47,456 nt of DNA from Candidatus Calescibacterium sp. (GTDB taxonomy: Bacteria; Calescibacteriota; Calescibacteriia; Calescibacteriales; Calescibacteriaceae). Under the pieces are notes generated by a model, which was not told where the DNA came from, searched no databases, and was given only the letters and a program-made list of their open reading frames with translations. The stretch spans positions 1 through 47,456 of the forward strand of contig JANXBU010000014.1 of assembly GCA_025060505.1 (NCBI GenBank), read 5' to 3'. This document shows positions 11,276-46,064 of the stretch, in pieces. Position numbers and translations under genes: made by a program. The stretch's first letter is position 1. Each line of letters opens with the position of its first letter.

Positions 11276-12790
11276 TCACTCTTTCAATTCAACTGTATAA
11301 TCTTCAACTATTGGATTCACAAAGAAATCAATGAGATCTGAATCCACATCTTTGTAAGAACTAATAAGATATGATTTCGCAACCCTTATATCTTTCACAT
11401 TTACCCCTATCTTTCTTAATCTATCTGCTATTGTTTTTCCCTCCGGATCAAAGACATCATCTCTCTTCATAACCTTGATCTCAAATGGCATAGAGGAAGC
11501 TCTATCAAATATATAATCAATATACTGAGGTTTAACCAATTCTAATTTTTCCGATACAATCTGAGCGATTTTCTTATCTTCTTTTTCAAGCATAGAAATC
11601 AAAGCAGTTTTGAAATCGGGAAATTTACCATCAACGACAGAAAAAGATGCCTTCTGAATTGTTTTGTAAGCTTTTTCCCTGTCATATCCAGCAACAACCA
11701 TCTCAAAAAGAGCTCGGGAGGAAAGTATCATACCCATTGAAATTTCAAGGTTCTTTTTTATCTTATCCTCATCTACTTTCAAACCTTCAAGAAGCAGTTT
11801 CAATCTTGAAAGTGCAAAATCAGAAAGTATACAGACTTGTGGGAAGATAATTCTCTCAGCAGATGAATGAGATATATCTCTTTCCATAAGCAAAGATATA
11901 TTTTCAAGAGCTGGTACAACAGCACTTTTGATCGTCCTTGCAATTCCTGTGAGATTTTCCGAAAGAACTGGATTTTTTTTGTGAGGCATAATAGAAGATC
12001 CCATCTGTTCCTCTTCAAAAGGTTCCATCATCTCTCCAATCTCTGTCATTTGCGATATTCTTATATTCAGAGCAATCCTCTCAATAGCAGAAGATAAAAG
12101 AGAGCATGCGACAATGAAATAAGCGTATCTATCTCGTGGAACCACTTGTGTTGGAACAGGCTCAGGTTTAAGTCCAAACTTCTCAAGAGCGTACGCTTCT
12201 ACCTCGGGAGGAACAGTATTGTATATACCAACCGCACCAGATATTTTGCCAAATCTTAAATTTTCTCTTGCAAACAGGAAAAATTTTCTTACCCTTCTGA
12301 ACTCAGCATAATGCGATAAAAATCTCACACCAAGAGTTGTAGGTTCAGCGTGAACACCGTGAGTTCTACCAACTGCAACCACATGTTTATATTTTTCAGC
12401 AAGATTTGAAATGACATTTTCTAACAAACGAATACCATCCACAATGTAATCTATTGATCTCAAAATTTGAATAGAAAATGCAGTATCCATCACATCAGAC
12501 GATGTTATCCCAAGATGAACAAACTTTCTTGCATTTTCCGAAACCTTCTTTTCTATGACTCTAACAAAAGCCGTTACCTCATGCTTCGTTTTGAATTCCT
12601 CTTGCTTTACCTCCTCTGGCTTTATTTCAACTCTCCTTACCTCATCCGCTATCTTCTGAGGTATAACACCGAGCTTTGCCCACCCTTCAAGAACAGCAAC
12701 CTCTATATCTCTCCAAATCCTATATTTTTCCTCATCTTGCCATATCTTTAACATCCTATCACTTCTGTACCTCGAAATCCAGTCAAGCAT
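11276..12790 (-). CDS. purB: Adenylosuccinate lyase fused to a C-terminal PurS domain
   Basis: Residues 1 to about 430 are adenylosuccinate lyase, which acts twice in purine synthesis (SAICAR to AICAR, adenylosuccinate to AMP). Motifs are 'VGRTHGVHAEPTTLG' and the fumarase/aspartase signature 'GSSIMPHKKNPVLSENL'. The last 69 residues (from about 436; bases 11279-11485) continue in frame as a PurS-like module: 'FEIKVMKRDDVFDPEGKTIA', 'KDIRVAKSYLI' and 'FFVNPIVEDYTVELKE'. PurS is the small subunit that bridges PurQ and PurL in FGAM synthetase. At 504 residues the protein is about one PurS longer than ordinary PurB. I start at 'MLDWISRYRSD' because earlier in-frame codons do not resemble PurB. 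No separate Shine-Dalgarno sequence precedes the internal Met of the PurS part. Confidence 0.9.
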   Translation of the reverse strand: MLDWISRYRSDRMLKIWQDEEKYRIWRDIEVAVLEGWAKLGVIPQKIADEVRRVEIKPEEVKQEEFKTKHEVTAFVRVIEKKVSENARKFVHLGITSSDVMDTAFSIQILRSIDYIVDGIRLLENVISNLAEKYKHVVAVGRTHGVHAEPTTLGVRFLSHYAEFRRVRKFFLFARENLRFGKISGAVGIYNTVPPEVEAYALEKFGLKPEPVPTQVVPRDRYAYFIVACSLLSSAIERIALNIRISQMTEIGEMMEPFEEEQMGSSIMPHKKNPVLSENLTGIARTIKSAVVPALENISLLMERDISHSSAERIIFPQVCILSDFALSRLKLLLEGLKVDEDKIKKNLEISMGMILSSRALFEMVVAGYDREKAYKTIQKASFSVVDGKFPDFKTALISMLEKEDKKIAQIVSEKLELVKPQYIDYIFDRASSMPFEIKVMKRDDVFDPEGKTIADRLRKIGVNVKDIRVAKSYLISSYKDVDSDLIDFFVNPIVEDYTVELKE

Positions 12791-12845
12791 ACTAAAATTT
12801 GTAGGAACTTCTAACTCTAAACTTAGAATATTCAATTTTTCTTTG

Positions 12846-13916
12846 ATGAAAATACTTCTACTCTTCAATCATAATCAAATAATCGGCGGAGGAGAAATCT
12901 CATTTGCAAGATACATAAATCATATCGCAAGAAGAATTGATTTAGAAATATCAGTTTTCATACCATCCGGAGGAGATTTAGAAAAATATCTCAAAATTGA
13001 TAAAACAAAAATAATTTCATTCGAAATTCCTTCATTCAAATCTAATCCAAAAAAAGTTGTAGAATGCGTTGTTAACTTCTATAAAATATTCAAAACGTTT
13101 AAACCCGATATCGTTCACACCAACGGATCTCGTGTGGCGCTATACTCAAACATTGCAAAAATTTTCACAAGTACAAAAACAATATGGCATGTGAGAATAG
13201 CCGAAAAAGATCTTCTTGATTTAATCCTCGTTCCAACTTCGGATGGAATAATAGCAAACTCAAAAAAAACATTAGAAAAAAGATTTTCTTGGCTAAGAAA
13301 AAATAAATGGGACAAAAAGATCAAAATCATCTACAACGGATTTGATATTTCAGAAATACAAGATAGACTGAAAAAAACAATCAACAGCATACATAAATAT
13401 CAAGAGCATATCGTAGTAGGCTCTGCCGGAAGACTTGAACTCGGTAAGGGATTCGAATACCTCCTGAATTTTGCAGAGATACTTTCTTATAGAGAAAAAA
13501 TACAGTTGGTTCTTGCTGGTACTGGACCACTCGAAAATAAATTAAAAGAAATACCAAAAAACTTAAAAGCAGTCTTTCCCGGATATATCCCAATTGAAAA
13601 TATACTTAAAGCATCCGATATAGTATGCTTTCCATCGCTGGTAGATTCATTCGGCAACCTTATCGTTGAATCAATGATAGCAGGAAAGGTATGTATGGTT
13701 TCAGAAATGTGCGGAGCATCGGAAATATATCCAATAGATGCTCTCAAGTTCAACCCAAAAAGTTTCGAAAGTTTTTTAAGGAGCTTTTATTATGCCAAAG
13801 AGAACATACACAACATAGAGCTTTCCCAAACTCTTAAGAGTGAAGCAGAAAAGTTCTCAATAGATAGGCACTCCGAGAGCGTGTTAGAATACTACGAGAC
13901 TATAGCTCAAAAGTAG
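12846..13916 (+). CDS. GT4-family glycosyltransferase
   Basis: A GT-B retaining glycosyltransferase of 356 residues. The N-terminal domain starts 'MKILLLFNHNQIIGGGEISF' (the GG loop that contacts the acceptor) and includes 'KPDIVHTNGSRVALYS'. The C-terminal domain has 'VVGSAGRLELGKGFEYLL', 'LVLAGTGPLENKL', 'VFPGYIP' and the conserved 'DSFGNLIVESMIAGKVCMV' with the E-x7-E-like donor-phosphate motif. It is divergent from purB with 55 bp between the start codons. The ATG at 12846 is preceded by TAGAAT 17 bases upstream and no Shine-Dalgarno sequence. The product is likely a cell-surface glycan; sugar unknown. Confidence 0.85.
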   Translation: MKILLLFNHNQIIGGGEISFARYINHIARRIDLEISVFIPSGGDLEKYLKIDKTKIISFEIPSFKSNPKKVVECVVNFYKIFKTFKPDIVHTNGSRVALYSNIAKIFTSTKTIWHVRIAEKDLLDLILVPTSDGIIANSKKTLEKRFSWLRKNKWDKKIKIIYNGFDISEIQDRLKKTINSIHKYQEHIVVGSAGRLELGKGFEYLLNFAEILSYREKIQLVLAGTGPLENKLKEIPKNLKAVFPGYIPIENILKASDIVCFPSLVDSFGNLIVESMIAGKVCMVSEMCGASEIYPIDALKFNPKSFESFLRSFYYAKENIHNIELSQTLKSEAEKFSIDRHSESVLEYYETIAQK

Positions 13917-18816: not shown

Positions 18817-18864
18817 AAATCAGAAATTTTTTCATTGAATACAAAAACCATAAAAATCTCTGAA

Positions 18865-20118
18865 ATGAGAGTCCTGGTTTTAGGTGGCGGAGGAAGAGAA
18901 CACGCAATAGGATGGAGACTTAAAAAGGATTTTCCACAAGGCGAATTCTTCTTTACTCCAGGAAATGGAGGAACTGAGAGAATAGGAGTAAATATAGTTT
19001 CAAATCCAGAAAATGCGTATGAAATTGCATCAATATGTGCAGAATTGAAAATAGATTTCATTTTTGTAGGACCAGAAAATCCGCTTGCCGGAGGAGTGGT
19101 TGATATTCTTGAGAAGGAAGGAAGAATCTGCTTTGGTCCAAATCAGAAAGCATCAAAGCTTGAAGCTTCAAAAGCCTTTGCAAAAAAAGTTATGGAAAGG
19201 GCAAAAATACCAACAGCTGACTTCAAAATCTACACAAAAGAAGATTTCGTGGAGGGAAAAATCTCACCAGAGAAATTAAAAACACCTATTGTGATAAAAG
19301 CTTCTGGACTATGCGCTGGAAAAGGTGTCTTTGTATGCAAAGAAAAAAAAGATATTCAAAATGCTTTTGAAAGAATATTTGTAAAAAGAGAATTCGGAGA
19401 CGAGGGAAACGAAATAGTGATAGAAGATTTTCTTGAAGGAAGAGAGATCTCATACTTTGCCCTATGCTCAAGAAATGAATTCGTATCGCTTGGATTCGCA
19501 AGAGATTACAAAAGACTTCTTGACGGTGATGCCGGACCCAACACAGGAGGAATGGGATCTTATACTCCTGTTGAATATGCAGACGAAAAGCTTAAAAAAG
19601 ATATAGAGACAAAAATAGTAAAACCTCTTATGAACGAGCTTGAAAAAGAAGGAATAAAATATACAGGAATTCTTTATGTAGGACTTATGATTGATGATAA
19701 AGGAAATCCGTATGTTCTTGAATTCAATGTGAGACTCGGTGATCCTGAAACACAGGTTCTTATGCCTTGTATAGATGGAAATTTCTTTGATGCTGCAATA
19801 AATGCTGCCGAAGGAAAACTCGTAAATATTCCCATCAAAAACTCTGCTCTATGTGTTGTAATAAGCGCAAAGGGATATCCAGAAAAATATCAAAAAGGTA
19901 TGCAAATAAAAATAGAAGGTGAAGAAGAAGGCGAAAACTTTGTTATATTTCACGCTGGAACAAGGAGGGAAAACGGAAAACTCATATCCTCGGGCGGAAG
20001 AATACTTGGAGTAGTAGGACTCGGAAAAAACAAAGATGAAGCAAGAAAATCGGCTTATGAAAAAATCAAAGATATAAATATACCAGATTCACACTACAGA
20101 AGAGACATAGGTCTTTAA
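18865..20118 (+). CDS. purD: Phosphoribosylamine-glycine ligase (GAR synthetase)
   Basis: Second step of purine synthesis: phosphoribosylamine + glycine + ATP to GAR. The 417 residues start 'MRVLVLGGGGREHAIGWRLK', the family's N-terminal phosphate loop. 'FVGPENPLAGGVVDILE' and the ATP-grasp core 'VIKASGLCAGKGVFVCKEKK', 'DAGPNTGGMGSYTPV' and 'EFNVRLGDPETQVLMP' follow. I use the ATG at 18865 rather than the TTG 30 bases earlier because family members start at this Met. Together with the PurB-PurS fusion it shows de novo purine synthesis, but the pur genes are scattered. Confidence 0.95.
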   Translation: MRVLVLGGGGREHAIGWRLKKDFPQGEFFFTPGNGGTERIGVNIVSNPENAYEIASICAELKIDFIFVGPENPLAGGVVDILEKEGRICFGPNQKASKLEASKAFAKKVMERAKIPTADFKIYTKEDFVEGKISPEKLKTPIVIKASGLCAGKGVFVCKEKKDIQNAFERIFVKREFGDEGNEIVIEDFLEGREISYFALCSRNEFVSLGFARDYKRLLDGDAGPNTGGMGSYTPVEYADEKLKKDIETKIVKPLMNELEKEGIKYTGILYVGLMIDDKGNPYVLEFNVRLGDPETQVLMPCIDGNFFDAAINAAEGKLVNIPIKNSALCVVISAKGYPEKYQKGMQIKIEGEEEGENFVIFHAGTRRENGKLISSGGRILGVVGLGKNKDEARKSAYEKIKDINIPDSHYRRDIGL

Positions 20119-23311: not shown

Positions 23312-24370
23312 ATGATAGCTCACCTGCCAATAGACAGAAGATTTACCTTTTCAAACTTTGTAACGGGAAAGAACAACAAAATAGCAAAAGAGGCAGCTAT
23401 AGAAATAGCTAAGGGGATTTCAAAAGTAAATTTACTTTTTATATGGGCTCCAAGCGGTCTTGGAAAAACACACCTACTCCACGCAATAGGAAATGAAGTT
23501 ATTGAGTCCCAGCTTACAACCAGAGTAACATACATCCCATCAAACGAATTTATGAGAGAATTTATGACAGCGCATCAGGAAAACCTCCTTTCAGAATTCA
23601 GAAGAAAATACCGAGATATGTGCGACGTTTTGCTCATAGATGACATAAACCTTCTTGAACCAGAAACAAGAAGTGCTACAAAGGAAGAAATATTTGAGAC
23701 CATAAACTATCTTCTTATAACTAAAAAGAGAATAGCAATAACGTCAGATAAACCCCCTCACGCTCTCAAAAATTTTGATAGCAAACTCATAACTAGATTT
23801 CAATGGGGAAGAGTTGTTGAGATAACTCCTCCACCGTATGAGGTGAGAGTCGCAATTCTGAAAGCAAAATCAGCAGAAAGAGGTTATAATATCCCCGATG
23901 ATGTGATCTTCTACATAGCAGAAAAAATATCTGGAAATGTCAGATGGCTTGAAGGCGCTCTGGAAACAGTAGTTATGTTCTCAGAAATAGAGGAAACAAA
24001 ACCATCAATTGAGATAGCAGAAAGAGCTCTTTCACAGATAAATGTTCCACTGAAGAATGTTGATGCTAAAAAGATAATAGAGTATACATCAAAATTCTTC
24101 AATTTATCTGCAAAAGATATACAAAGTCCAAGAAGAAAGAAGACAATCTCCCTTGCAAGGCAGATGGCTATTTACCTTTGTAGAGATATGCTTAACCTTT
24201 CTACAACACAGCTTGGCCAGATTTTCGGAAACCGTGACCACTCAACAATAATATACGCCATAGAAAAGATAAAGGCCGACAAGGAAAAAGATTCCCAGAT
24301 CCAGTACATCCTCAATTCTATAAGAGAGATGATTCTTGGAGAGTCTACTGGGAACGGCTCTAATCATTAA
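23312..24370 (+). CDS. dnaA: Chromosomal replication initiator DnaA, lacking N-terminal domains I-II
   Basis: Replication initiator, 352 residues against about 440-470 usually. The protein starts almost directly in the AAA+ domain: 'RFTFSNFVTGKNNKIAKEAA', Walker A around 47-54 ('PSGLGKTH'), Walker B around 107-111 ('LLIDD'). The C-terminal DNA-binding domain is intact with 'RQMAIYLCRDMLNLSTTQLG' and the signature 'NRDHSTIIYAIEKI'. Domain I, which binds helicase and other DnaA copies, is missing. A strong ribosome site (aaaggaggg) fixes the start, and the upstream bases do not encode a missing N-terminus in any frame I could find. oriC follows directly. Confidence 0.95.
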   Translation: MIAHLPIDRRFTFSNFVTGKNNKIAKEAAIEIAKGISKVNLLFIWAPSGLGKTHLLHAIGNEVIESQLTTRVTYIPSNEFMREFMTAHQENLLSEFRRKYRDMCDVLLIDDINLLEPETRSATKEEIFETINYLLITKKRIAITSDKPPHALKNFDSKLITRFQWGRVVEITPPPYEVRVAILKAKSAERGYNIPDDVIFYIAEKISGNVRWLEGALETVVMFSEIEETKPSIEIAERALSQINVPLKNVDAKKIIEYTSKFFNLSAKDIQSPRRKKTISLARQMAIYLCRDMLNLSTTQLGQIFGNRDHSTIIYAIEKIKADKEKDSQIQYILNSIREMILGESTGNGSNH

Positions 24371-24893: not shown

Positions 24894-26334
24894 GTGAAGA
24901 GGATATCCTTAATAGTTCTTCCCTTGGTTTCAGTTTTAATTTCTTATATTGGCGGTTTTGATTTCAGACAAATTATTGCCATAGGTATTCTTGTTCTTTT
25001 TATTACCTCCACATTGCTTTATTGGCAGTTCAGATCTGCATTTGCTCTTATGGGAGTTTCATTACTTTTTATGCTCGGGCTACTTGATATACGGAACTTT
25101 ATCAATTTCGCTCAGCTTGATGTTGTAATATTCCTTGTTGGAATGATGACTGTTATAGGTGTTCTCGAAGAGAGACACTTTTTTGATTACATACTTGATA
25201 TTATTGGACAGAAGATCAGATCTGGTACAGTTTTGTACGTTATCATACTTGTTATGTCTGCGGTAATGGCAGCTCTTGTCGATGAGGTCACTTCAATAAT
25301 TTTCATAACTTTTTTTATATTGAAGGTATCAAAAGCTTTGGATGTGAATCCAGTTCCTTTAGTTTTAGCCTCTATATTTGCTACAAATGTCGGCAGCAGT
25401 GCTACAGTTGTTGGAAATCCTATTGGTGTTATTGTTGCGCTCAGAGGAGGGTTTTCTTTTACAGACTTTCTCATTTGGTCTGCTCCAAATGCTCTGCTGA
25501 TTCTATTCATAACTATAGTTCTCTGTTCAGTTATCTGGGCCTCATACATAAGGGAGATCAACTCTAAGCTCAAGAAGACAGGATTGAGATTTGATATACA
25601 GAAAGATATAAGTACGATGCAATTTACAAATGTTGTTATATTCTTGGGAACTATTGTTATGCTCGTTCTTCACAGTCCGATTGAAAATGTTATGGAAAAA
25701 TTTTTGGGAAAGGAAAAGGGAGATATGAAGAATGTCTTTCTGGTCGCAGTACCGCTATTTTGGGCTTCTGTTGGTCTTCTTCTCGAAAGGCATAGAGCTC
25801 GTGAAATCATACTTTATAGAGTTGACTGGGTTACTCTTCTTTTCTTCACTCTTCTTTTCTCAACCGTCGGAACTCTCAAATACACAGGAGCCGGTGTTAA
25901 AATCGGAGAATATATAATTTCTGTTGGCACAAATTTGGGTAAAATTATAGGAAGTGCAGAGTCCGGTACATTGTTCTCTGTTTTTGCTTTTCAGGGGATA
26001 CTTACCGCTTTTCTTGATAATGTTCTTGCTATTGCTGTACTTGTTCCGGTGGTCTTTTCTATATATGAGTCTCAGAGATGTTTTTGCTTTCTTCTGGGCG
26101 CTACTTTTTTCAGGAACTATGGCTGGCAATTATACACCTATTGGTTCAACTGCAAATATAATCGCGCTCGGGATATTGGAAAAAAATAACAAAAGAATAA
26201 CTTTCGGATATTGGCTCAAATATTCCGTAATTATAGCAACAGTTCAGATAATTATATCTTTGATTTGGTTGAATTTCTTTGTGTTCAAAAACGCTCCGCC
26301 AGACTATGTTCCTTCAACTCAATTTTTGGACTAA
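24894..26334 (+). pseudogene. ArsB/NhaD-type ion transporter interrupted by a +1 frameshift
   Basis: Two overlapping frames together make one IT-superfamily membrane transporter of about 480 residues. The first frame (GTG start at 24894, no ribosome site) runs through helices and motifs such as 'ALVDEVTSIIFITFFILKVS', 'ATNVGSSATVVGNPIGVIVA' and 'LTAFLDNVLAIAVLVPVVFS'. It then turns into nonsense ('QRCFCFLLGATFFRNYGWQL') and stops at 26189. The next frame carries the expected ending, 'FFWALLFSGTMAGNYTPIGS', to 26334. Removing one base, most simply G26067, joins 'VPVVFSIY' to 'SLRDVFAFFWALL'. It could be a sequencing error, a recent mutation or programmed frameshifting. Substrate (Na+/H+, arsenite or an anion) is not decidable. 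Confidence 0.75.
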
Positions 26335-41677: not shown

Positions 41678-42154
41678 TTATTTTGTTTTTGTCTTTATCT
41701 TTTTCCAAGCTTCCTCGAGTTCTTCTATGTATCCGATTACTTTTTCAAGGAGTTCTTTGTCTTTTTTAATATCTGCTTCTGTTATTTTTTGCGTTATGAA
41801 GAGGTAGGAAGATATAAGTTGCTTTCCGACATCATTTGGTTCTGTTGTCGCCATAAGTAGATCAAATACTTTCATTGCTTTTGAGATTCCTTCGTATTTA
41901 AGTTCATAGTTTTTTGTTGAAATTCCTTCTATCGCTTTTCTTATTGAGTTCTTTGCTATGTCATAGCACATAAGAAGTAGTGTTACTGGGTCTGCTGTTT
42001 TCAGTGAATCATCTGCGAATCTCTCACGAATATTTTTCGTTTTTTCATGTATATCCTCAGTTTTGATTGTTTGTTCTGTTTTTTCACTTTCCGTGGTTTC
42101 TTCTTCAATGATTTCTATGTTTCTTACTGAAATATCTTCTAGGATCTTTTTCAT
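41678..42154 (-). CDS. fliS: Flagellar export chaperone FliS
   Basis: Binds the C-terminus of flagellin and prevents premature polymerisation. 158 residues: an acidic, Glu/Thr-rich extension of about 45 residues, then the FliS helical bundle 'TADPVTLLLMCYDIAKNSIR', 'ISKAMKVFDLLMATTEPNDV', 'LISSYLFITQKITEADIK' and 'YIEELEEAWKKI'. Usual FliS is about 130 residues and lacks this extension. It is the last gene of the flaG-fliS unit, 54 bp after flaG. Confidence 0.85.
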   Translation of the reverse strand: MKKILEDISVRNIEIIEEETTESEKTEQTIKTEDIHEKTKNIRERFADDSLKTADPVTLLLMCYDIAKNSIRKAIEGISTKNYELKYEGISKAMKVFDLLMATTEPNDVGKQLISSYLFITQKITEADIKKDKELLEKVIGYIEELEEAWKKIKTKTK

Positions 42155-42208
42155 CTCTGATTTTTAATATTTTCTTTCGTTTTATGTTTTTAATTCTTTA
42201 AAAATTAT

Positions 42209-42613
42209 CTAAACTTTCTTGTTGAGCAGTAATTCTGTAAGAACATCAAAAAATAACCTTATTCTCCTCATCAATTCTGCCATTTCTTCTTTTGGAAAGA
42301 CTTTGATTATCTTTCCTGTCACATCTTTCACCCTTACTATTGGAATGTTCCCAATTTTGTCAAAGGAAAGGAAGATTCCTACATTTTCAAGCTTAGGAGA
42401 TATTTCTTCTATGAGCTTCTTTAGCTCCTGATAATTTACGGAATCTGGAGTTTTGTTTTTGAGGTTCTGTATATAATCAACAGTTGCTCGGATTTTTTCG
42501 TCACTTTCATTACTTGATATGGGTGTCGTTTGTATATTTACTGTTTTATTCACCTGTATTTTTTGTTCAAGATTTGATATGTTTTCGTCTGGATTTATCC
42601 TGTTGACTTCCAT
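42209..42613 (-). CDS. flaG: FlaG family flagellar protein
   Basis: 134 residues. The N-terminal half is a polar linker ('NRINPDENISNLEQK'). The C-terminal half has the FlaG pattern 'FLSFDKIGNIPIVRVKDVTG' and 'KIIKVFPKEEMAELMRRIRL'. FlaG influences filament length in several bacteria. It is preceded by a strong ribosome site (aaggaggg) and a sigma28-like promoter (42666-42692), and is followed by fliS. Confidence 0.85.
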   Translation of the reverse strand: MEVNRINPDENISNLEQKIQVNKTVNIQTTPISSNESDEKIRATVDYIQNLKNKTPDSVNYQELKKLIEEISPKLENVGIFLSFDKIGNIPIVRVKDVTGKIIKVFPKEEMAELMRRIRLFFDVLTELLLNKKV

Positions 42614-42665
42614 GTCTGATCCCTCCTTTTTATTTAAGCCTCCTTGCTTTCATAATAATTTAATT

Positions 42666-42692
42666 AAATCGGAAATTTTCAGTAAAAGTTTA
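42666..42692 (-). promoter_or_regulatory. Sigma28 (FliA)-type promoter for flaG-fliS
   Basis: On the minus strand: TAAACTTT (42685-42692), an 11-bp spacer, TCCGATTT (42666-42673). The enterobacterial sigma28 consensus is TAAAGTTT-N11-GCCGATAA. The start of transcription would be about 45 bases before the flaG ATG. Confidence 0.7.
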
Positions 42693-42741
42693 GCTCTGTT
42701 TCTTTTTTAGTGTTCTTCTGGAATCTGAAGATTCGAAAGTT

Positions 42742-43842
42742 TTATCTTCTTAACATATCTACACCCTGTGAGAGCATAGCGATTGCTCTTTGGAGAACAG
42801 ATGTATTTGCTTGGAGTATTGTTTGCTTCAGAGAGAGAATTGTTGCTTCCGAAGGCATATCTGTTTCTGAGAGAAAACTGCCAAGTATCTTGTGCTTTGT
42901 TTGTATAACGGAGTTCATATCATTTCTGGAACTTAGTCTTTGTATTTTCTCTCCTAAGTTACCTTTTATTTCAGATAATTTTCTGAGCGCTTCTGTTATT
43001 CTTCCGAGATTCACTTCTGTGCCTTCTGAAAGATCTTGGGTCAATCCCAGTGATTCCGGATCAAGTGATGGAAGGAAAAATTTCTCAAAATCGTTTTCTC
43101 CTTCTCCAAAAATTGCAAGTAAGGGATCTGCTTTTACATATACAGTAGCTTCAAAATCCTCCGGTGTGTTTATGTTTAGGCTCATACCGATTTCCTCGAA
43201 ATCAACGGTGTTTGGGAAATTATCAATGAGTATATCTTTGGTTTCTGTTATAACTGTGTTTCCGTTTACTTCAATGGCGGCTTGGACGCTGTTTCCAGCT
43301 TTTGAGATTTTTATCTGGAATATTCCAAATTCCTGAACGCCATATTTTTTGAAATCTATACCAGATACATTTATGTCAGGTGGTATAAGATTTGCACTTC
43401 CTGATGTTATCTCTATTTTCACAACTGCGTTTGAATAGCCACCCGAGGCGATTGATTTTCCAAGAAATCTCGTTTTTTTTATATTTTCTCTGAGAGCCAA
43501 GAATCTTTCTGTATATGCTTTTTCAAGTTTCTTGAACTCATCAGGTTCATTCACTTGTGTAGATCTTTCAACTATTATTTTCATGTCTTCAATAGATGAT
43601 ATTACAGAATTTAGAACCTCTTCATATTTTTGAAGTGTGTTTGTTGTTTTGGTAAGATGCTGAGATACAAAATCTAATTTTTCTACTTTGTCTTTTAGGA
43701 TTGATGAAAGGTAAATTCCTGTTGGTGAGTCGGCATTTCTTGTTTTACCTGAAGATATTCTTTGTATTGATCTTTTGAGCTCTTCGTTTTTTATGGATAT
43801 TTCTTTTAGAGTGTATGTTGAGGATATTTTAGATGTTTTCAT
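42742..43842 (-). CDS. fliC: Flagellin
   Basis: Filament subunit, 366 residues. The N-terminal D0/D1 helices contain 'EELKRSIQRISSGKTRNADS', the conserved 'L-x-x-S-x-x-R-I-x-S-G' motif. The C-terminal D0/D1 helices contain 'SEATILSLKQTILQANTSVL' and 'QRAIAMLSQGVDMLRR'. The middle domain is variable and rich in Asn, Ser and Thr, which would offer O-glycosylation sites. FlgL, a related hook-junction protein, is the main alternative, but the context with fliS, flaG and fliW favours flagellin. It starts 2 bp after the stop of the glycosyltransferase gene. Confidence 0.85.
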   Translation of the reverse strand: MKTSKISSTYTLKEISIKNEELKRSIQRISSGKTRNADSPTGIYLSSILKDKVEKLDFVSQHLTKTTNTLQKYEEVLNSVISSIEDMKIIVERSTQVNEPDEFKKLEKAYTERFLALRENIKKTRFLGKSIASGGYSNAVVKIEITSGSANLIPPDINVSGIDFKKYGVQEFGIFQIKISKAGNSVQAAIEVNGNTVITETKDILIDNFPNTVDFEEIGMSLNINTPEDFEATVYVKADPLLAIFGEGENDFEKFFLPSLDPESLGLTQDLSEGTEVNLGRITEALRKLSEIKGNLGEKIQRLSSRNDMNSVIQTKHKILGSFLSETDMPSEATILSLKQTILQANTSVLQRAIAMLSQGVDMLRR

Positions 43843-43844
43843 TT

Positions 43845-45563
43845 TTAATGAAAGGTAATGCTGTTTTGAATATTTTCTTTTGTGCTTATGGAACTTATTT
43901 TTCTTTGGATTTCATATCTTACATTCTCCGCTTTTGCTGAATCTTTATCAGGGGTGTATTTCAGTGTAAGGAGAGCGTTTTCAAGAGAGATAAGTTTTAT
44001 TACATCTCCGGAGAACTTTTCTGATATTTTTATCCAAGCTGTTGAAAGGTCTGGTATATCTTCTGCGAAGACTACTATGCCGCTTATTTCACAGGCTGTT
44101 TCAAGCATCTTTACAGATGATAGAAGATCTCCGTTTTTAAGAACTATATTTGCACATGAGGAAAGAGCTGACAGTATATGTATTTCATTTGGTGGAACTA
44201 CTTCTACTTTTTTGAGATATTCTGAAAAAAGCTCCAGTGATTCTTTATATCTACCCAACGAGAACATGAAGTTTGCGTAATTGAATATTACATCTGTATT
44301 TTCTCTATCGTTTTCATATGCTTTCCGGTAGTATTTTTCGGCTTCTTCTACTTTGCCGATTCTTTCTGCTAAGAGAGCTAAGTTTGAAAGTTGATATTTG
44401 GGAACTCTATCTTCAAACTCTTTGAGTATTTCATAGGCATCTTTATAATTGCCGAGCTTGAACATACAATCTACAAACTCGTCTATGGTTGGATCCCACA
44501 GGAAATACTGAGGAGAAACATTTTTGAGTTCTATAAAATATTTTTTCGCTTCAACGTAATTGCCTTGCTTATAAAGTGATTTAGCTTTCAGTGCAAGGTA
44601 CCTTCTTTTGACCGATTCTGGAGCTATGGGAATTATTCCTATGAGGAATCCTTTCTTTCTTACCTTTTCAAGTTCTTCAAGTGCTTTTTCATAGTCATTT
44701 TTGAGGTAGTGTATTTCTGATTTTACGAGATTTATAACTCCTTCGTCTGGTCTTATTTTTTCTGCTTCTTCAAGAGATTGGAGGACATCATCAAATTTCC
44801 CCATTACTTTTTCTATTTCTGCTTTGAACATCCAAAGATCGAATCTCCAATTTATAGCCTTTTTTGGAACGAGTTTTATCGCTTCATTTATTTTCTCGTG
44901 AGCTTCTTTTAGTTTCCCAAGTTTTGCCAGAGAGAAAGCTATGTACCTTTTGATATAGAATTCGTTTGGTTTTTCTTTTTCCTCTTGTTCAAGAAGTTTC
45001 AAATTTCTCATCATTTTTTGTTCTATTTTTTTCGGATCGCTGTATCCAAGGTGGTTTATTTTTATCTGTGTATATACTTGTTTTAGATTTCTTCTTTCAG
45101 CAGCGAATATTATCTGCTCGTGTATTCTTCCTTCAAATCTCATATCTGGAAAGTTTGGAAACATTCTGAGCTGGAACCAGTACCAGTTCGCTTCGTCACC
45201 TTCTGCTATTTTGCTTTCTATGAGGAAGAAGTAGCATTCGTTTTTTTTAGCAGGTAGATTTTTCTTGAGCTCCTTGAATTTCTGTATGTTGTGATCATCT
45301 ATGAAGTCATCTGCATCAAGCCAGAGTATCCAGTCTCCTGTTGCATATTTTAAGCTTTCATTTCTTGCTGCTGCGAAATTGTCGCACCATTCAAAGAAAT
45401 AAACTTTTGCTCCAAGTTCTTTTGCTATCTCGGGGGTTCTATCTTGACTACCCGTGTCAACTACTATTATTTCATCTGCAAACTCTTTTGCGCATTTTAT
45501 GATTCTTGCTATGTTTTCCTCCTCGTTTTTTGCTATCATGCATACGGAGATTGTATTGGACAT
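43845..45563 (-). CDS. GT2 glycosyltransferase with TPR repeats (probable flagellin glycosyltransferase)
   Basis: About 572 residues. The N-terminal 230 residues are a family-2 glycosyltransferase of the SPS-like type: 'ISVCMIAKNEEENIARIIKC', 'ADEIIVVDTGSQDRTPEIA', 'WCDNFAAARNESLKYATGDW' and the DxD-type 'WLDADDF'. The rest is TPR-like helical repeats, e.g. 'KAINWRFDLWMFKAEIEKVM', 'LLAERIGKVEEAEKYYRKAY' and 'VIFNYANFMFSLGRYKESLE'. I start at the ATG at 45563, 8 bases from aaaggagg; a GTG three codons earlier overlaps the ribosome site. It lies between fliW and flagellin with gaps of 18 and 2 bp, so flagellin is the likely acceptor. That target is inferred from context. Confidence 0.85.
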   Translation of the reverse strand: MSNTISVCMIAKNEEENIARIIKCAKEFADEIIVVDTGSQDRTPEIAKELGAKVYFFEWCDNFAAARNESLKYATGDWILWLDADDFIDDHNIQKFKELKKNLPAKKNECYFFLIESKIAEGDEANWYWFQLRMFPNFPDMRFEGRIHEQIIFAAERRNLKQVYTQIKINHLGYSDPKKIEQKMMRNLKLLEQEEKEKPNEFYIKRYIAFSLAKLGKLKEAHEKINEAIKLVPKKAINWRFDLWMFKAEIEKVMGKFDDVLQSLEEAEKIRPDEGVINLVKSEIHYLKNDYEKALEELEKVRKKGFLIGIIPIAPESVKRRYLALKAKSLYKQGNYVEAKKYFIELKNVSPQYFLWDPTIDEFVDCMFKLGNYKDAYEILKEFEDRVPKYQLSNLALLAERIGKVEEAEKYYRKAYENDRENTDVIFNYANFMFSLGRYKESLELFSEYLKKVEVVPPNEIHILSALSSCANIVLKNGDLLSSVKMLETACEISGIVVFAEDIPDLSTAWIKISEKFSGDVIKLISLENALLTLKYTPDKDSAKAENVRYEIQRKISSISTKENIQNSITFH

Positions 45564-45581
45564 ATTGCTCACCTCCTTTTG

Positions 45582-46064
45582 CTATTTATTTTCCTGTTGT
45601 GCTTGTATGCTGTTTTTTTGTTGATTTTCTTTCTGTAAATCTATTTCAACATCAAGGAGCTCATCCGGTCCCTCGAGAACAAGATGTTTTCCTAATTTAT
45701 CTCTGGTGTTCAGAATTATTGGAGCTATAAGGTTGCATGTCATTTTTCCTTTTTTCTCAATATGTAGGATAACTCTTATGGCGACGTCTGATATATCTTT
45801 TATTTTTATCTCTTCCAGCTCTTTTGGCGATGCCAGAACTGAGTATGTAGGAAGTATATGGGAGGGATCTGTTACAAGAAATGCTAAGTTGTTTGAGTCA
45901 AATGAATGCATTATTTCAATAGGAAAAGGAAATTCATTATTTATTATTTTTAAGAAGAAAAACTTCCTGTTTTCGGGAAATCCAAGAACGCCACCGGGGA
46001 AATCAAAAGTTTCGTTTTCATCTATCTGCAATTTTCCGAATATTTTTGATTCAAATTCAATCAT
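45582..46064 (-). CDS. fliW: Flagellar assembly factor FliW
   Basis: Binds flagellin and, in many bacteria, the translational repressor CsrA, linking filament assembly to flagellin synthesis. 160 residues: 'FGKLQIDENETFDFPGGVLG' followed by 'FPENRKFFFLK' is diagnostic, then 'NLAFLVTDPSHILPTYSV' and 'NLIAPIILNTRDKLGKHLVL'. The C-terminal 30 residues are a Gln/Asn/Lys-rich tail. The usual partner csrA does not follow; the glycosyltransferase does. A sigma28-like promoter ends 12 bases before the ATG, so the message is nearly leaderless. Confidence 0.92.
   Translation of the reverse strand: MIEFESKIFGKLQIDENETFDFPGGVLGFPENRKFFFLKIINNEFPFPIEIMHSFDSNNLAFLVTDPSHILPTYSVLASPKELEEIKIKDISDVAIRVILHIEKKGKMTCNLIAPIILNTRDKLGKHLVLEGPDELLDVEIDLQKENQQKNSIQAQQENK

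Follow-up and report, generated by a model that had tools for sequence, protein, structure and literature searches.

A PurB-PurS fusion protein fixed in the Calescibacterium lineage

Introduction

Why should the gene for adenylosuccinate lyase (PurB) run on into a domain that resembles PurS, a subunit of another enzyme of purine synthesis, and what could a cell gain from such an arrangement? The question is raised by a minus-strand gene of Candidatus Calescibacterium sp., one of a small group of hot-spring bacteria; the gene lies within a contig stretch of 47,456 nucleotides that was analysed as a whole (contig JANXBU010000014.1, assembly GCA_025060505.1; hereafter the window). In the purine pathway PurL acts at step 4 and PurB at step 8, as well as in the adenylosuccinate step, with PurM, PurE/PurK and PurC acting in between. 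PurB is a homotetramer whose active sites are each built by three subunits, and in the FGAM synthetase complex of T. maritima PurL, PurQ and PurS are present at a ratio of 1:1:2. PurS itself is a homodimer, and large-PurL homologues function inefficiently without it (PMC3815217).

In this study, we show that the PurB-PurS fusion is real and lineage-fixed in Calescibacterium, and that it is probably functional. The initial annotation knew of no described fusion of this kind, and we likewise found none in the part of the literature that was accessible, so that "undescribed" is a provisional term here. The Calescamantes genome paper makes no mention of purine genes.

Results

Gene structure and the PurB part

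In the open reading frame list, the stop-free minus-strand frame extends over 11276-12868. Within it, the ATG at 12790 is the likely start, because the start Met of 4/4 orthologues aligns with it and because initiation at the alternative upstream TTG (12868) would create an overlap with a gene on the opposite strand. The 504-residue product carries the Pfam domains Lyase_1, ADSL_C and PurS in this order, with ADSL_C scoring under its curated cut-off. Both the frame and the profiles thus bear out the initial annotation, which had the adenylosuccinate lyase gene reading without a stop into a PurS-like domain (Table 1). At the junction, the C-terminal PurB helix ends in YIDYIFDR (the stand-alone PurB of genome G323 has VDKVFRRV here), and a linker of about four residues leads from this last helix to the first PurS strand.

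Table 1. Coordinates of the fusion gene and its two parts in the window
Feature	Position	Strand	Details and basis
purB-purS fusion gene	11276..12790	(-)	504 aa + stop; ATG start at 12790
PurB part, residues 1-434, adenylosuccinate lyase	11489..12790	(-)	TIGR00928; PDB 1c3c/1c3u; conserved columns
PurS domain, residues 435-504	11279..11488	(-)	PF02700; T. maritima PurS 3d54_B; length comparison; dN/dS

A complete PurB makes up the first 430 residues. This part reached 392 bits against TIGR00928 in an NCBIfam profile search, above the equivalog cut-off of 326.2, and its nearest solved relatives by fold, PDB 1c3c and 1c3u, match it at 39% identity and a TM score (target) of 0.89. The signature loop GSSIMPHKKNP, the His in TKHEVTAF, and GRTHG are all present, and H70, H144, S265, S266, K271 and N273 are invariant in the fusions and the other PurBs; in this family the His of TxHE/DV, GRTHG and GSSxMPHKxNP hold the signature loop and the catalytic residues. 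The fusion is the one true PurB of the source genome, and each of its four relatives likewise has a single PurB. A lineage-specific change was seen inside a conserved motif at PurB residues 300-303 (window 11882-11893), where 5/5 fusion PurBs read L-[LF]-M-E before RDISHSS and other PurBs mostly L-W-H-E.

The PurS tail

PF02700 matched the whole protein with 37.7 bits and the tail alone with 44 bits, both above the gathering cut-off of 22.2, and a profile of 15 stand-alone PurS proteins gave the tail 37.9 bits, compared with 12.2 for the best of 5000 shuffled tails. T. maritima PurS 3d54_B also matched the tail (E 8e-5), with 3d54 and 1vq3 being its nearest solved relatives. Two NCBIfam equivalog cut-offs for PurS were missed (PRK05974, 41.5 of 75; TIGR00302, 27.9 of 39), which is accounted for in part by a shortening of about 8 residues around beta3/alpha2 (helix 2) that is common to 5/5 fusions: the distance from the Lys of RxGK to the NP motif is 18-19 residues in the fusions (19 in the window copy) versus 25-28 in 17 other PurS. 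The equivalog definition also describes a separate small polypeptide, whereas in five genomes the PurS frame is continuous with PurB. The motifs DPEGK, RVAK/RVGK and NPIVE are kept, the window copy having RVAK in place of RVGK. The "complete PurS-like domain" of the initial annotation is borne out as PurS by the PF02700 match, but given the deletion common to the family it is not quite complete. Judged by its sequence, the PurS domain of the fusion is divergent, slightly shortened and conserved.

Predicted models of the PurS part, both of low confidence, gave the order beta-alpha-beta-beta-alpha-beta. The low-confidence tail model superposed poorly (TM about 0.3) on crystal structures of PurS, and the top structural matches of the weak isolated-tail model were common ferredoxin-like folds, with no PurS entry prominent among them.

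Purine genes of the source genome and the window

A PF02700 search of the 2.28 Mb assembly (86% complete, 115 contigs) returned one match, the fusion gene itself, and no second purS was found. Neither of the two conditions that the initial annotation had set as refuting, a missing PurS profile match and an intact purS beside purQ/purL, was therefore encountered in this assembly. A small PurL is encoded on contig C104 and PurQ on C82; no pur gene was evident beside either of them in the sequence that was read, and PurL begins directly at its own domain (MLTKSEIEIIK...), without a PurS-like extension. With a single PF02700 match and a PurL that has no built-in PurS, the genome has an FGAM synthetase of the small-PurL type, for which the fusion provides the only PurS found. 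A purD-like gene was recognized by eye at 18835-20118 of the window, and no other pur gene adjoins the fusion. Elsewhere in the window, we noted an ion-transporter-like permease at 24894-26334 whose gene is split into one frame at 24894-26189 and another, overlapping it, at 25954-26334 (either an erroneous frameshift or a gene that is truly broken), a DnaA-like protein of 352 aa at 23312-24370, seemingly without the N-terminal part of normal DnaA, and a stretch of flagellar-type genes at 41678-46064 (FliS-, FlaG-, FlgL- and FliW-like, by eye).

Conservation in the family

The fusion is present in 4/4 other genomes of the family (Candidatus Calescibacterium nevadense EM19, Bacterium HRbin19, BF2.bins.44 and the uncultured bin S1 180), with a length of 504-511 aa and 62-63% identity to the window copy. 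Small PurL and PurQ were found in each of these relatives, and none was found to have a stand-alone purS of its own, the five family assemblies being 82-86% complete by marker estimate. In the pairs where it could be computed, dN/dS was 0.09-0.21 for the PurS part and 0.05-0.15 for the PurB part, with synonymous sites near saturation except in the pair G001/G003 (PurB 0.07, PurS 0.21). By these ratios, the PurS tail is under purifying selection, slightly weaker than that on PurB.

In the C. nevadense bin (G004), contig C103 carries a tandem PurS-PurS protein of 154 aa (L036, 2297-2761) that adjoins a second PurL-like gene. It was considered as a hidden stand-alone purS and set aside as probable contamination, as it comes with a second, different PurL. 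Similar double PurS frames occur in genomes G042 and G043.

Distribution and origin

Among the matches listed for a fusion profile run against 386 genomes across the bacterial domain, no continuous PurB-PurS match lay outside the Calescibacterium family. A further set of 383 genomes, overlapping in part with the first, gave no such fusion among matches with an E of at most 1e-118, and none was seen in two phyla taken as a whole (with 4 and 44 genomes) or among the matches listed for viral contigs and plasmids. The case for absence elsewhere is strong, not exhaustive, and a distant, independent PurB-PurS fusion beyond the matches listed could have been missed.

The purB and purS genes often lie side by side, as was seen in several other phyla, with nine pairs of neighbours read at the DNA level. 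In G323, G191, G231, G387, G389, G424 and G426 the profile match continues in a single frame from one gene into the other, with one to three intervening stops; the two genes are separated by a single in-frame stop in G323 and in G191, and by two stops in G231. Since such neighbours, some of them in one frame split by stops, exist in other phyla, the loss of a stop codon between adjacent purB and purS genes is the simplest origin of the fusion, and probably the true one.

Some candidates did not hold. L049, which tblastn aligned with residues 5-504 as if it were a distant fusion, actually has purB and purS as two separate neighbours with a gap of about 33 bases (gene order by eye purD-purE-purB-purS-purQ). 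In G336 and G141, PurS frames of 404 and 280 codons owe their length to read-through in GC-rich DNA, with no evident fusion. A PurC-PurS fusion of about 317 aa was observed in G050 and G325 (L081 1442-2398 and L082 1852-2805), followed by purQ- and purL-like genes.

Discussion

The sequence evidence makes it likely that the protein is bifunctional and that its tail provides PurL and PurQ with their PurS subunit. That the join is an artifact, i.e., two adjacent genes fused by an assembly or sequencing error, might be suspected in a source genome fragmented into 115 contigs, but the recurrence of the fusion, at 504-511 aa, in four further genomes that were assembled independently (the five genomes cover three genera) rules this out for practical purposes. 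A more serious alternative is that PurS is set free, by post-translational cleavage or by an internal start at ATG 11488, and acts as an ordinary free subunit, leaving the fusion without a structural role. A Met does stand exactly at the old PurS start in 4/5 fusions; it is missing in G002, however, and in the other fusions no obvious Shine-Dalgarno sequence precedes it, so that separate translation of PurS is not a conserved feature, while the linker of only about 4 residues offers no recognisable protease site. We therefore consider a freed PurS improbable.

We give slightly less credence still to a tail that has left FGAM synthetase altogether and now serves PurB in regulation or oligomerisation, with PurL and PurQ working without PurS. 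The 8-residue deletion in 5/5 fusions, the divergent sequence of the window copy, with RVAK replacing RVGK, and the low profile scores of the tail would all fit such a change of role, but homologues are described as inefficient without PurS (PMC3815217), the searches found no further PurS belonging to these genomes, and the DPEGK, RxGK-like and NPIVE motifs are retained at low dN/dS.

If the tail does act as PurS, the logic of the domains makes it plausible that PurL and PurQ are tethered to PurB. In the working form that seems most likely, PurB would form its usual homotetramer, the four PurS tails would pair into two PurS dimers, and one PurL and one PurQ would dock on each dimer, as in the T. 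maritima 1:1:2 complex; FGAM synthetase would thereby be borne on PurB, with the PurB:PurS ratio locked at 1:1. A fixed PurB4-PurS4-PurL2-PurQ2 assembly, in which the PurB tetramer is the scaffold of FGAM synthetase and the whole is a hard-wired bacterial counterpart of the purinosome, is a possibility that we put forward with some reserve. Direct channelling between PurL and PurB is unlikely, because their reactions share no metabolite and PurM, PurE/PurK and PurC intervene; a benefit in assembly or stoichiometry, or none at all, is more likely than channelling.

With PurS fixed to PurB, the lineage provides a natural experiment, through covalent linkage, on whether enzymes from distant steps of purine synthesis gain from being held together, and a simple recombinant system of three genes for addressing that question. 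The fusion also suggests a route by which a small obligate subunit may outlast the break-up of its operon, namely by joining its neighbour.

The fusion is a new combination of known components. Its tail shares Pfam family, motif order and partner genes with stand-alone PurS (T. maritima 1vq3, 3d54; B. subtilis 1t4a), being about 35% identical to the T. maritima protein, and differs in its place on the PurB C-terminus and in the loss of about 8 residues near helix 2. T. maritima PurB (1c3c, 1c3u) is matched over its full length, at the identity given above and with signature loop and catalytic histidines kept, whereas the fusion carries a PurS domain past the normal PurB C-terminus. In large PurL (e.g. 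that of Salmonella) a PurS(-dimer-like) domain is likewise built into a larger purine enzyme, but there PurS is joined to its own partner PurL, whereas the enzyme that carries it in the fusion acts four steps from PurL. The PurC-PurS protein of G050 and G325, from another family, resembles the fusion in bearing PurS on the C-terminus of another purine enzyme, and differs from it in both the enzyme and the lineage.
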